This document shows, in pieces, positions 4,236-47,399 of a stretch of DNA of 50,469 nucleotides (positions within the stretch are counted from its first letter, which is position 1; every line of letters begins with the position of its first letter). The position numbers and the translations under genes are program-made. The notes under the pieces are model-generated. The model was given only the letters and a program-made list of their open reading frames with translations, was not told the origin of the DNA and made no database searches. Origin of the DNA: Rubritalea profundi (GTDB lineage Bacteria > Verrucomicrobiota > Verrucomicrobiia > Verrucomicrobiales > Akkermansiaceae); the NCBI RefSeq assembly GCF_002954445.1, contig NZ_MQWA01000001.1:3937717-3988185 (forward strand), given 5' to 3'.

Positions 4236-4291
4236 CTGATATTTGATGCTCAAGTATTGGCTGAAATGATGAGAATGAGGAAGGACAATTA

Positions 4292-4309
4292 GCCGAGCTA
4301 GGGCTCGGC
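4292..4309. repeat. Hairpin GCCGAGC-TAGG-GCTCGGC
   Basis: Perfect seven-base stem with a four-base loop in the spacer. No following T tract, so it is not an obvious terminator. Confidence 0.55.
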
Positions 4310-4527
4310 GCTCCTAAGGAACAACTCGCTGAGCATTCTATAAAATGCTTCGATTAAGAATTTACGTGTTCAGCGTTCAGCGTTCAGCGTTCAGATTTCA
4401 GATTTCAGAAAATCCATTGGTAAGATTAGTGGGATTCGTGGTGAAAACCGTTTCATCCTGCTGGCCATCTTTTTGAAATTTTCGCGTCTTTCGCGGTAGG
4501 GTAACTGTCTCGCAGCACACGACCCGC

Positions 4528-42240: not shown

Positions 42241-43243
42241 TTACTCGGCATTCATCAGCCCTTTGATGCTATCCATTTGGGCTTTCCACGCGTTCTTGCT
42301 GTAGCCACACCTGCTAGAGTCATCACGTAGGGAACATTGTGTCTCTGGCAATATTGATAGACGAGAAGGTCCCGAGCGGCGATGCCTGCGGCACTCATCC
42401 TCCCATTGGCTAGCGGATCTCCTGCTAGAGAATCGCAACCAGCTACGTGGAAAACGATATCTGGCTTAGATTCGGCGAAAACACGTGGCAGCACCCTCTC
42501 TAAAGAGGCATTGAATTCCGCATCGGTCACACCCTTTTGCACGGGTAAATCAAGATTTCCCAATTGCTTTGGCCATGGATAGATATCCATTTCATGCATC
42601 GAGAAAGTGTAGGTGGTCGGGTCATTTTGCAGGCAAACAATTGTACCATTGCCTTGGTGAATATCTGTATCGATCACCAGAGCTCGTTTGATCACCCCTT
42701 CCTTTTGTAGCTTACGGATAGTGATAGGCACATCGGCGATGATGCAGAACCTTCACCTTTGTCGGGCATGGCATGATGGTAGCCACCTCCTAAGTTGACA
42801 GCGGCACCCAGCTTCAATGCTAAACGCGCAGCAGTCAATGTTCCACCGGATGCGGTGATGAATGGTTGGACCACATTTTTTTCAATATTGATCCCTGGGA
42901 TTTTAGCTATGATCGGTGCTTCTAGATAAGTAGCTACGAGCTGCTTATCTTTTAAATTCTCTAGGTATTGCTCAGAGTGGACTAACAACAAATCCTCACG
43001 TGTGAGTTCCTCTGGCGCATGACTGGATTCCTCGGTCATAAATCCCCCAGCCTTCAATCCTTTATGGATTTTATCGTATTTTTTGATGTCGAATGGATGC
43101 ATTCTTTCTAAACCAAATAATTCGATCGTCGACTTGCTAGAATACACGACAGGGATGAGCTTTTTTGGAGGTGTCTGACCCACACTTTGACAACTCGTCA
43201 TGGCTCCGAGCCCGACACTGGCTAACAATATCCTTTTCAACAT
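42241..43243 (-). pseudogene. Secreted histone-deacetylase-family lipoprotein, two frameshifts
   Basis: Arginase/deacetylase-fold protein related to acetoin-utilisation and histone deacetylases. From ATG 43243 it has a lipoprotein signal (lipobox MTSC), then the family's N-terminal part (VVYSSKSTIELFGLERMHPFD, LVHSEQYLENL) and NLGGGYHHAMPDKGEG. The frame breaks near 42748 and resumes as CIIADVPITIRKL, then ALVIDTDIHQGNGT (the D-x-H zinc motif) and VAGCDSLAGDPL. It breaks again near 42305, after which the third frame reads GYSKNAWKAQMDSIKGL to the stop at 42241. Single-base losses in TTT and GGG runs explain both. It would be about 334 residues and a deacetylase facing the periplasm, which is unusual. 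Confidence 0.8.
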
Positions 43244-43319
43244 GAGTTTATAGCAACATAGATTGAACCCCTCCAACAATTGATTTATTCAATACAACTA
43301 TTAGTCTCAGCTTGCTACC

Positions 43320-43880: not shown

Positions 43881-44903
43881 ATGTCTCAAGCCACCAAACT
43901 TTCCGCTAGCGCCCTCAAGTACTACTTCGAACAAGACGAAGTAGCCAAACCGTGCGGGAAGACCTTGATCGTACAAGGCACACCTGGAACTTGGCTCGAC
44001 TACTTAGAATGCGACACCCCCGACGTGCTTAGCTATCTAGCAAATGAGAACGCGCAGTGGCAACAAGCTGGGGTCACTCCCCTACAGAATAGTGACGAGA
44101 AGTATGATCTGATCATCCATTTTGCTACAAAATTTGCCACCGAGAATCTAAGCTCACTCGGCAAGCTCAGCCAGCAACTTAACCCGAATGGTCGCTGGAT
44201 TTCCGTCGTCCCTAATAAGATGGGTGCGTCCCGCTTAAAGAAGGACATCAAAAAACTCTTCAATGAAGTCGAGACCTGCAGCAAATCAAAGTGCCGGATT
44301 TTCGACACCTACTCTACGATTGATGCACCACTCGCTCGCAAGTGGGCTAGCCTCGGTAAGATCAAAGCGATCAAGGACACCGAGTTCCTTACGACTCCTG
44401 GAATATTTTCCGCTGAGAAGATTGATAAAGGATCACAATTGCTCGCAGAGATTCTTAAGAAGGAATCATTCTATGGATCTGGCGCCGACCTCGGTGCTGG
44501 CTACGGGTTTCTTAGCAAATCAGTACTGGAAACACCTCGCAACAGAATCCGCGAAATCGTTCTTTACGAACTCGATAAGCGAGCTCTCGACTGTGCCCAA
44601 CAAAATCTAGCAGACCACGACAAAACCCTTTTCCAATGGTGTGATGTCACAGCAGGAACCCACCACGAGCGCAAGTTCGACTGGGTAGTGATGAACCCAC
44701 CCTTCCACGAAGCGCAGGACCAGAGCTATGAGCTTGGCAAAACATTCATCCGCGAGGCTGCCCGAATTCTCAAGCCCGGTGGTGGTCTCTACCTCGTGGC
44801 AAATCTCCACCTCCCGTATGAAGAACTCATCCGCACAGAGTTTAGATCCCACAAGCTCCTAGGTGAGGAGAATGGATTTAAGTGCATTTTTGCTAGAGCT
44901 TAG
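43881..44903 (+). CDS. RsmC/RlmG-type rRNA guanine-N2 methyltransferase
   Basis: SAM-dependent methyltransferase of 340 residues with the RsmC two-domain plan: a degenerate N-terminal domain (1-165) and a C-terminal catalytic domain. SAM binding is shown by ADLGAGYGFLSK, acidic YELDKRALDCA, and the catalytic NPPFHE (Asn272). Known relatives methylate G1207 in 16S or G1835 in 23S rRNA; which applies here is not readable from sequence, although TTPGIFSAEKIDKGSQLLAE is typical of RsmC. ATG 43881. Confidence 0.86.
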   Translation: MSQATKLSASALKYYFEQDEVAKPCGKTLIVQGTPGTWLDYLECDTPDVLSYLANENAQWQQAGVTPLQNSDEKYDLIIHFATKFATENLSSLGKLSQQLNPNGRWISVVPNKMGASRLKKDIKKLFNEVETCSKSKCRIFDTYSTIDAPLARKWASLGKIKAIKDTEFLTTPGIFSAEKIDKGSQLLAEILKKESFYGSGADLGAGYGFLSKSVLETPRNRIREIVLYELDKRALDCAQQNLADHDKTLFQWCDVTAGTHHERKFDWVVMNPPFHEAQDQSYELGKTFIREAARILKPGGGLYLVANLHLPYEELIRTEFRSHKLLGEENGFKCIFARA

Positions 44904-44961
44904 CTTTTTTAGCCGCGAAATGTGCGAACTGACCTCCCACACCCAATCGCGTGCATATAGT

Positions 44962-44989
44962 CACGTGAGGCTTAGCCTCTATACGTGAT
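44962..44989. repeat. Covarying hairpin 1 (inner stem GAGGC-TTA-GCCTC)
   Basis: Outer arms CACGT / ACGTG, inner stem GAGGC / GCCTC, loop TTA, then a TAT bulge before the right outer arm. It aligns without gaps with the next three. Confidence 0.75.
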
Positions 44990-45070
44990 ACGCCCCCCGT
45001 TTCATCAGTTCTGCCTGAACTCAAACTCTGAACTCTTCCCGCAGGGATACCAATGACCCGCGTGTGTCAC

Positions 45071-45098
45071 CGCGTGAGCCTATGGCTCTATACGTGGA
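45071..45098. repeat. Covarying hairpin 2 (inner stem GAGCC-TAT-GGCTC)
   Basis: Outer arms CGCGT / ACGTG, inner stem GAGCC / GGCTC, loop TAT, TAT bulge. It matches hairpin 4 except in the right outer arm. Confidence 0.75.
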
Positions 45099-45167
45099 CC
45101 CATGACTCTTGACTAATGACCGCCACAGGCTCTCTGAAAAATGAAAGTTAAAAACTCAACTTCAAAT

Positions 45168-45195
45168 CGCGTGCGCCAAAGGCGTTTTACGCGAC
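45168..45195. repeat. Covarying hairpin 3 (inner stem GCGCC-AAA-GGCGT)
   Basis: Outer arms CGCGT / ACGCG, inner stem GCGCC / GGCGT (one G-T pair), loop AAA, TTT bulge. Both inner-stem sides differ from hairpins 1, 2 and 4, yet pairing is kept. Confidence 0.75.
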
Positions 45196-45232
45196 CCATC
45201 ATTCTTGACAATGCACCAACGAATAACATCGC

Positions 45233-45260
45233 TTAACATTCTATCAGTTAGGCGGATAAT
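45233..45260 (+). repeat. 28-bp dispersed repeat, copy B
   Basis: Matches the reverse complement of 4208-4235 at 25 of 28 positions. Confidence 0.65.
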
Positions 45261-45345
45261 TTTGCAGGGGCCTTGAGTTTGGCTGGTCTTCTTTCAGTTC
45301 AGTTCAGTTCAGTCTGAACTCTGCACTCGAACTCTGTCCGCCAAT

Positions 45346-45373
45346 CGCGTGAGCCTATGGCTCTATACGCGGA
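45346..45373. repeat. Covarying hairpin 4 (inner stem GAGCC-TAT-GGCTC)
   Basis: Outer arms CGCGT / ACGCG, inner stem GAGCC / GGCTC, loop TAT, TAT bulge. Confidence 0.75.
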
Positions 45374-45777
45374 TCTACGACCGCCGCAGGCATCCCCCCC
45401 TCATCACTTGAATAAAAATTGAAACGGAACGTGAAACAAACGGAACACCTAACACACTAATCAATAGCTCGTTCAGCACACCTATCAAAACGGCGCAATA
45501 TCAGCAGCCAACCAGCGACATTGCCCGTCGAAACTTCCCCCTTCACACACCTGCTAGAACTTGCTACTACCCTGCATCATTACTCCCATGTCGTCACTCA
45601 CCCGTTTCATCAGTCTTGTCTGAAAACTGAACTCTGAACACTGCTGCCACAGCCATCCCCCTTTCTCCTTTATCCTTCCCCCTAACAATCTATCACTACT
45701 CCCACGCGCAACTGCGCGATCACTCACACCTTTATCCTTTCTCCTCACCACTTCACACTTTTCCCTAAACTACTTTC

Positions 45778-47399
45778 ATGATCTGGAACGAACCTGCTGA
45801 CACATCTGACACATCCGCCGAGCTAGAGAAGCGCCTATGGGCGACTGCTAACACGCTCTGGGCGGATGCTGACCTCAAGCCCTCCGAGTACTCACCTATC
45901 GTGCTCGGCATCATCTTCCTGCGCTTTGCCGATGCCAAGTTCGCAGCGGTCGAGGCCGACATCCAGCCAGCCGAGGGTTCGCGCCGTCGCCGGGCTATTG
46001 GGCCTACTGACTACCATGCAAAGGGCGTGCTCTACGTGCCGGCATCTGCACGCTTCCAGAATATTCTAGAGCTGCCTGAGGGCGAGGCTATCGGTCAGGC
46101 TATCAACGAGGCGATGAAAGCCATCGAGTCCGACAACCCGGACCTCGCAGACGTGTTGCCGAAGACCTACCACATCCTCGACAACCGCACGCTCACTTCC
46201 CTGCTCAAGGACATCGCCTCTATCCCACTCAGCGAGAGCGGCGACACCTTTGGACTCATCTACGAATACTTCCTTGGAAAGTTTGCCATGAGCGAGGGCC
46301 AGAAGGGCGGCGAGTTCTACACGCCAGTCTCCATGGTCAAGCTCATCGTCGAGATCCTAGAGCCCTACCACGGCCGCATCCTCGACCCAGCCTGTGGCTC
46401 CGGTGGCATGTTCGTCCAGTCCGCCCGCTTTGTGGAGGAACACCAGAAGAACCCCACCACCGAGCTCTCGGTCTACGGTCAGGAGAAAACCTCCGCCACC
46501 TCCAAGCTCGCCCGCCTCAACCTCACCGTCCACAACCTCACTGGCGACATCCGCCAGGGCAACACCTTCTACGAGGACCTCCACGACTGCCCCGGCCGCT
46601 TCGACTTCGTAATGGCGAACCCACCGTTCAACGTCAGCAAGGTCGACAAAGAACGCCTCAGCACAGAGTGCGGGCCGCACGGGCGGTATCCATTTGGGAT
46701 GCCAAAGACGGATAACGCCAATTACCTGTGGATTCAGCAGTTCTATTCTTCTTTAAATGAAAAGGGCAGAGCCGGGTTTGTGATGGCAAACTCCGCCTCC
46801 GATGCACGCTCGTCAGAGGCTGACATCCGCCAGAAGCTCATCGAGACCGGTGCTGTCGATGTCATGATCGCCGCCCCGTCGAACATGTTCTACACCGTCA
46901 CCCTGCCAGCGACTCTGTGGTTCTTTGATAAAGGAGCCATCGCCACACCACGCGAGGACACAGTGCTCTTCATCGACGCCCGCAACATTTTCCGCCAGAT
47001 CGACCGCGCCCACCGCGACTTCACCCCCGCCCAGACCGAGTTCATTGCCAATATCGTCCGCCTCCACCGAGGCGAGCAGCCCGAACTCACCCACGGCTCA
47101 GAAGCCAAGCTCAAGGAGGTCTTTGGTGATCCTTCAGACAATTCACCACTCACCATTCAAAATTCACCATTCAAGAATATCCCCGGCCTCTGCCGCGCGG
47201 CAACGCGTGCTGAGATCGCCGAACAGGGATATTCGCTGAACCCTGGCCGCTATGTCGGTGCTGCACCGGGTGAAGAGCTCAGTGACGAAGACTTCAACGA
47301 GAAGCTCATCAGCCTCAACGAAGAACTCGTCGTCCTCAACGCCGAAGCTCGTGAGCTAGAAGACACTATTGCTGCAAACGTAACGGAGATCTTGGGAGC

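Follow-up and report, generated by a model that had tools for sequence, protein, structure and literature searches.

The described systems closest to the hairpins studied here are the GTAG-tagged REP sequences, which occur together with a RAYT transposase (PMC3733652, PMC2817692, PMC3116915, and PMC8266576, in the parts of these papers available to us). The accessible part of the 2013 survey also reports CGTC-tagged palindromes apparently without a dedicated transposase (PMC3733652). Genes for GIY-YIG proteins are described in other settings, either as homing endonucleases like SegB (PMC13096335, accessible part) or as an ordinary integron cassette (PMC10609294, accessible part). The spread of palindromic repeats that have no RAYT tag is an open question, one that would become testable with a nuclease gene enclosed by them. 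At the level of titles and the first lines of abstracts, with few subscription journals covered, we recognized no account of the present hairpin family or of a GIY-YIG partner of bacterial palindromic repeats.

The window, i.e., the whole stretch of DNA analyzed (50,469 nucleotides of contig NZ_MQWA01000001.1 from Rubritalea profundi), contains four such hairpins, which are ordinary members of the family lying in a repeat-rich intergenic region and not a system of their own. We propose that the family consists of miniature, non-autonomous mobile DNA hairpins of ~30 bases with a GIY-YIG nuclease as the best candidate for their driver, a reading held tentatively and at somewhat less than even chances.

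The Hairpins of the Window

The original prediction placed hairpins at 44962, 45071, 45168, and 45346, and all were found at these starts on the + strand, with arms, stems, loops, and bulge as described: outer arms CRCGT/ACGYG, inner stems GAGGC/GCCTC, GAGCC/GGCTC (twice), and GCGCC/GGCGT (with one G-T pair), loops TTA, TAT, TAT, and AAA, and a bulge on the 3' side that reads TAT or TTT. The length had been given as 28 nt; the core comes to 26 nt (5+5+3+5+3+5 for outer arm, inner arm, loop, inner arm, bulge, and outer arm), and the last hairpin ends at 45371. Copy 1 (44962..44987, CACGT-GAGGC-TTA-GCCTC-TAT-ACGTG) reaches 46.0 bits with model R1, and copy 2 (45071..45096, CGCGT-GAGCC-TAT-GGCTC-TAT-ACGTG), with an outermost pair C-G like that of the type B hairpin (see below), 41.6 bits. 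Copy 3 (45168..45193, CGCGT-GCGCC-AAA-GGCGT-TTT-ACGCG) has the type A ends (T...A) and scores 48.8 bits with R1 and 52 bits with model R2, and copy 4 (45346..45371, CGCGT-GAGCC-TAT-GGCTC-TAT-ACGCG) 48.4 bits with R1. The outer-arm pattern has exactly these four matches in the 50 kb window; shuffled sequences gave a mean of 0.19, with none of 100 reaching four. When folded as DNA, the + strand of each copy adopts the predicted structure (z from -3.35 to -6.32), and none of 200 shuffles folded equally well; the minus strand was folded for two copies, and in one of them 8 of 200 shuffles were equally good. Rfam gave no match at E <= 1 in the region 44000-46500.

Upstream of the hairpins there is a methyltransferase gene (PF05175), and downstream hsdM, hsdS, and an AIPR gene; a shallow look at this restriction-modification operon revealed no tie to the hairpins. 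The intergenic region contains other repeats too. One of them (45192-45286) lies directly 3' of copy 3, ends in ...GTTAGGCGGATAATTTT, and recurs at no fewer than seven other sites of the genome, with or without a hairpin, and another segment (45532-45599) has 99% identity to the intergenic stretch C1:3410396-3410463 of the same genome, with hairpin copies ~2 kb from the latter. At 42255-43279 (-), a histone deacetylase domain (PF00850) is shared between two adjacent frames, each matching one half of it, which looks like a single gene split by a frameshift.

Family Distribution and Covariation

The original prediction was to be given up if further copies and statistical support for covariation were lacking. 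Further copies do exist, both in the own genome and in its relatives, and covariation is supported. A pattern search found seven in R. profundi, and a covariance model built from eight copies of this genome retrieved 11 there at E values up to 0.0125, three of them outside the training set. With the same approach, copies were found in 10 of 58 genomes, R. profundi among them, and in three of 12 from its own genus. Across the order Verrucomicrobiales, at least 34 of 386 genomes have copies at E <= 1e-4, counts being lower bounds, with 18 candidates scored per genome in this survey and 150 in a deeper one. The latter yielded, for 10 of the 34 genomes, at least 144 (G043), 36, 34, 12, 11, 8, 5, 4, 4, and 4 copies, and a pattern scan of named genomes at least 119 stretches. 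Among the matches listed in the pattern scan, 97 distinct ones came from records titled as Verrucomicrobia, 94 of which end in T(T/A)TACGCGA or TTACGCGA, and 33 from elsewhere, also judged by record title, where this 3' end was seen once, in a contig titled Pelagibacteraceae that may be misbinned. Three contigs of a viral collection match the pattern as well, and two hold a copy with the family 3' end (L485:12302-12329 and L486:2741-2768).

Compensatory changes on both sides of the stem, which had been claimed from four copies, do preserve pairing throughout the family, with 97.6% of cells paired in 100 aligned copies (81 distinct). Neither the covariation score nor the number of cells with a two-sided change was reached by any of 500 shuffles, and pairs with a two-sided change (4 vs. 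2.6) were matched by 53 of the 500; the copies studied come largely from a single genome (G043), and the P values ignore relatedness. If the structure is slid by 1–3 columns, pairing drops to 20–58%. The covariance alignment is fitted to the model, so that the pattern scan, in which pairing was not demanded, serves as an independent check: among the matches listed, both free pairs are complementary in 88 of the 97 from Verrucomicrobia vs. seven of the 33 elsewhere. The unit can be written as A-[TCGCGT...ACGCGA]-C and is ~30 bases long; its inner stem covaries, and its T-rich bulge is unpaired. In 161 copies the only strong conservation outside the stem is the A before and the C after it, further positions being weakly conserved, and some copies form tandem arrays in which a few bases separate one hairpin from the next.

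Copies Inside Genes

Some copies are found within reading frames. In G328, one Y1 transposase gene contains three in-frame hairpins, the first two of which are cleanly absent from 21 aligned homologues (seven of 30 matches, with stops or shorter than 90 aa, were excluded), and the third falls within a variable stretch and is also found in the G353 homologue. In G020, a hairpin disrupts the frame of another Y1 gene. Being dispersed, mostly intergenic, strand-oriented (see below), and, inside genes, absent from homologues, the hairpins behave as small mobile REP-like repeats, and their description as a new, untagged, covarying, REP-like mobile family is well supported. A hairpin of ~30 bases that lands in frame within proteins would rank among the smallest mobile units; the Rickettsia palindromic elements are longer than this.

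Y1 Transposases and RAYT Genes

As short bulged palindromes, dispersed, intergenic, multicopy, and with a covarying stem, the hairpins agree with the REP-like family proposed originally; the link to a RAYT-type transposase, for which a check had been suggested, is not supported, since the RAYT genes inspected carry other repeats at their flanks. Matches to Y1_Tnp are common, with 16 in R. profundi and at least one in each of the 14 other genomes searched for PF01797, and HUH elements are established to use folded single strands with a strand preference (PMC6006769, accessible part). The hairpins could be REP-like repeats moved by an unlinked HUH enzyme (a RAYT or an IS200-type TnpA), with the GIY-YIG gene described below as a passenger. 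We consider this unlikely. Among 81 stretches around Y1 genes (some overlapping), a clear hairpin was found in three and none had it at both gene ends, and no terminal GTAG or GGAG tag is conserved in the 161 copies. Five RAYT-type genes (~180–240 codons) inspected with their flanks had GGAG-tagged repeats in three cases, a GGAA variant in one, and another repeat in the last. One RAYT of G043 does have the hairpin on both sides, as part of composite repeats that also contain a GGAG-tagged repeat; one of the four composites lacks the hairpin, and the GGAG-tagged repeat fits the role of that RAYT's own partner. The RAYT as main partner was therefore dropped, given the three hairpin-bearing Y1 stretches out of 81 and the other repeats at RAYTs.

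The window itself has a GGAG-tagged hairpin at 4285-4314 (-), also present in L021, that resembles the repeats flanking the RAYT gene at C1:2106 kb of the same genome. RAYT-like Y1_Tnp domains were also seen in one open frame within larger proteins, namely methionine synthase MetH (L014:919-3237, -, and L107:1-2349, +; G000 and G010), with its activation domain matched in two stretches, leucyl-tRNA synthetase (L228:70-3273, -; G353), and an HsdR-like protein (L008:52-3246, -; G000). A transposase domain inserted in frame in housekeeping enzymes merits a separate study.

GIY-YIG Nuclease and Integron Integrase Loci

When the reading frames around 117 hairpins were clustered, two families recurred, integron integrases or pieces of them (12 neighborhoods) and a GIY-YIG protein of ~90 aa (eight neighborhoods), the next clusters, including a Y1 transposase and a CysN-like gene, being found in four. 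The integrase matches TIGR02249 with 317 bits (cut-off 265); the GIY-YIG protein matches PF01541 above cut-off in the two proteins scanned, and Y, G, R, H, and E are invariant in seven aligned proteins, of which G, Y, R, and E are residues typical of GIY-YIG. A search of the 386 genomes produced 27 matches to the GIY-YIG family in 22 genomes, seven of them at >=60% identity. All seven close members belong to hairpin-bearing genomes and have a hairpin 24–58 nt upstream, and none of the 20 more distant ones has such a hairpin; the query was chosen from a hairpin neighborhood and the seven loci had already been met via hairpins, the new information from the protein search being that it turned up no close member lacking a hairpin. 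No GIY-YIG relative was confirmed in viral contigs or plasmids.

On the 3' side, six of the seven loci have a sister hairpin (type B), CCACGTGACC-GAA-GGTTTTACGTGG, which is degenerate in R. profundi and whose TGA is the stop codon of the GIY-YIG gene in three loci; in G030, by contrast, it interrupts the gene start. A model built from the copies beside GIY-YIG genes clearly identified only ~12 type B hairpins in 96 sources, so that this type is rare and most copies are lone type A hairpins. The loci lie next to pieces of integrase genes: five of the seven are flanked by such fragments on either side, and the other two have them on the 5' side (one such piece weak, E 0.005). The break points differ, at residues ~27, 33, 77 (four times), and ~90, with the integrase resuming anywhere from ~170 to 326. 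Integrase genes are also interrupted by type A and type B pairs that lack a nuclease gene, both in G043 and G270, where some 11–21 integrase residues are missing, and in a Puniceicoccaceae record, the latter also providing an eighth GIY-YIG gene with the same order. The seven loci may share a common descent. In 27 of the 34 hairpin-bearing genomes there is no close GIY-YIG gene, and a test for co-evolution failed: dispersed copies matched the GIY-YIG-side hairpin of their own genome better in only 18 of 57 cases (11 type B rows excluded), with G000, G342, G270, G256, and G030 in favor and G043 and G291 against.

Given these neighborhoods, the integron integrase itself might recombine the hairpins, treating them like attC single-strand sites of very small size. 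The presence of integrases or their pieces near 12 of the 117 hairpin neighborhoods would agree with this, as would the enrichment of hairpin-bearing genomes among those with a close integrase (11 of 32). Among 30 integrase loci retrieved by protein similarity, three have a hairpin, each directly 3' of the stop codon; the remaining 27 have none, and the three had been met before through hairpins. The attC sites have the box consensus RYYYAAC/GTTRRRY at their stem ends. No such boxes are present in the outer stem TCGCGT/ACGCGA, and the unit is only ~30 nt, for which reasons an attC identity was rejected and movement by the integrase appears improbable. The integron integrases of this order have two features of their own, a part of ~110 aa that precedes the TIGR02249 match at the N-terminus (L427-L456) and, upstream of many of them, a GTTC-N4-GAAC motif that we take to resemble a LexA box.

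Gene Context and Strand Polarity

In a count of 99 copies, 89 lie outside ORFs of >=150 aa. Taking the longest ORFs as genes (no gene-finder predictions, one duplicate row dropped), the hairpin is preceded by a gene in the same sense in 50 of 77 cases and followed by one in 42 of 79. These counts yield no leader rule, and any preference for the 3' side of genes is mild at most; several copies directly precede start codons, yet a role as leader element was rejected because no such preference exists over the 99 copies.

Read in hairpin orientation, the GC skew of the flanks is negative out to 1500 bases, with a ratio of negative to positive of 140:19 in 161 copies and of 101:16 in 117 separate neighborhoods (one copy per neighborhood sharing a 40-mer). 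Genes on the opposite strand also show negative skew (43:8 before the hairpin and 32:14 after it), so that this is an effect of the strand and not of the genes. GGAG hairpins from a loose pattern set show the reverse polarity, in a weaker form (11:30 of 41). In R. profundi, switches in the sampled skew lie near 1.5 and 3.8 Mb, some exceptions aside, and by our reading four of six hairpin loci agree with the regional skew and five with the local one. The polarity would fit insertion into single-stranded DNA at the replication fork.

A strong polarity and a kept stem would also be expected of a polar chromosome motif or a protein-binding site used by the cells, of the KOPS or Chi sort. We find this very improbable for repeats that are present in three of 12 genomes of the genus and in at least 34 of 386 of the order, that form tandem clusters, and that are found within coding genes. 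The least probable explanation, to the point of being barely credible, is an RNA hairpin acting in cis (as a leader, a stability element, or a terminator), which the covarying stem, the 50 of 77 preceding genes in the same sense, and the copies right before start codons would suit, but not the 42 of 79 following genes, the polarity kept over antisense genes, or the lack of any Rfam match, which also discards a known RNA family. With no fixed place near genes and a patchy presence among genomes, the idea of an RNA element or specific binding site that accompanied the original prediction finds no support.

A Possible Mode of Spread

Returning to mobile hairpins driven by a GIY-YIG nuclease, we suggest that the hairpin would spread as folded single-stranded DNA in a manner linked to replication. 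The candidate driver is the ~90-aa nuclease, with its gene between inverted hairpins (type A upstream and type B on the 3' side); it would cut at the hairpins or at their targets, and repair would then paste hairpins in. In this way it may do for the hairpins what RAYT transposases do for REPs. Both this cutting and the resulting movement are predictions. The four copies in the window would then be old and diverged offspring in a repeat-rich intergenic region. Taken as a whole, the hairpins might form a new bacterial class of miniature mobile DNA, inserting with respect to the direction of replication and spread by a small GIY-YIG nuclease in the place of a RAYT, with the nuclease gene enclosed by two inverted hairpins and lodged in integron-integrase genes; we still regard this possibility as doubtful.

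Comparison with Known Systems

The family shares with REP sequences, as presented in the accessible part of PMC3733652, a bulged palindrome of 20–40 nt that is intergenic and multicopy, with variable stems in which pairing is kept. It differs in having no GTAG or GGAG tag, in that the local RAYTs go with other repeats, and in the GIY-YIG gene that stands in the place of the RAYT. The CGTC palindromes of the same survey, as far as its accessible part describes them, are likewise short, but the present hairpins have no CGTC end and no A-T pairs at the first and second stem positions, and show an interrupted stem with a 3-base loop; the C that would begin CGTC occurs in 16% of the 161 copies, and the unpaired CGTC end is absent. 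Some type A and type B hairpins form inverted pairs, with ~16 nt between the stems, like the inverted REP pairs called REPINs (PMC3116915, accessible part), although single copies prevail, the outermost pair is not the same in the two hairpins, and there is no RAYT. In-frame insertion in protein genes is shared with the Rickettsia palindromic elements, which are named in the accessible part of PMC3733652. Integron attC sites are similar in being hairpins with extrahelical bases and, in some loci, in their proximity to an integron integrase, but the hairpins described here have no boxes and at most half the length, and no cassette array was seen in the loci read. Finally, free-standing GIY-YIG homing endonucleases are also small GIY-YIG proteins (PF01541) with a gene lodged within another gene, whereas the gene found here is enclosed by two inverted hairpins of a repeat family whose members are also present singly in the genome.
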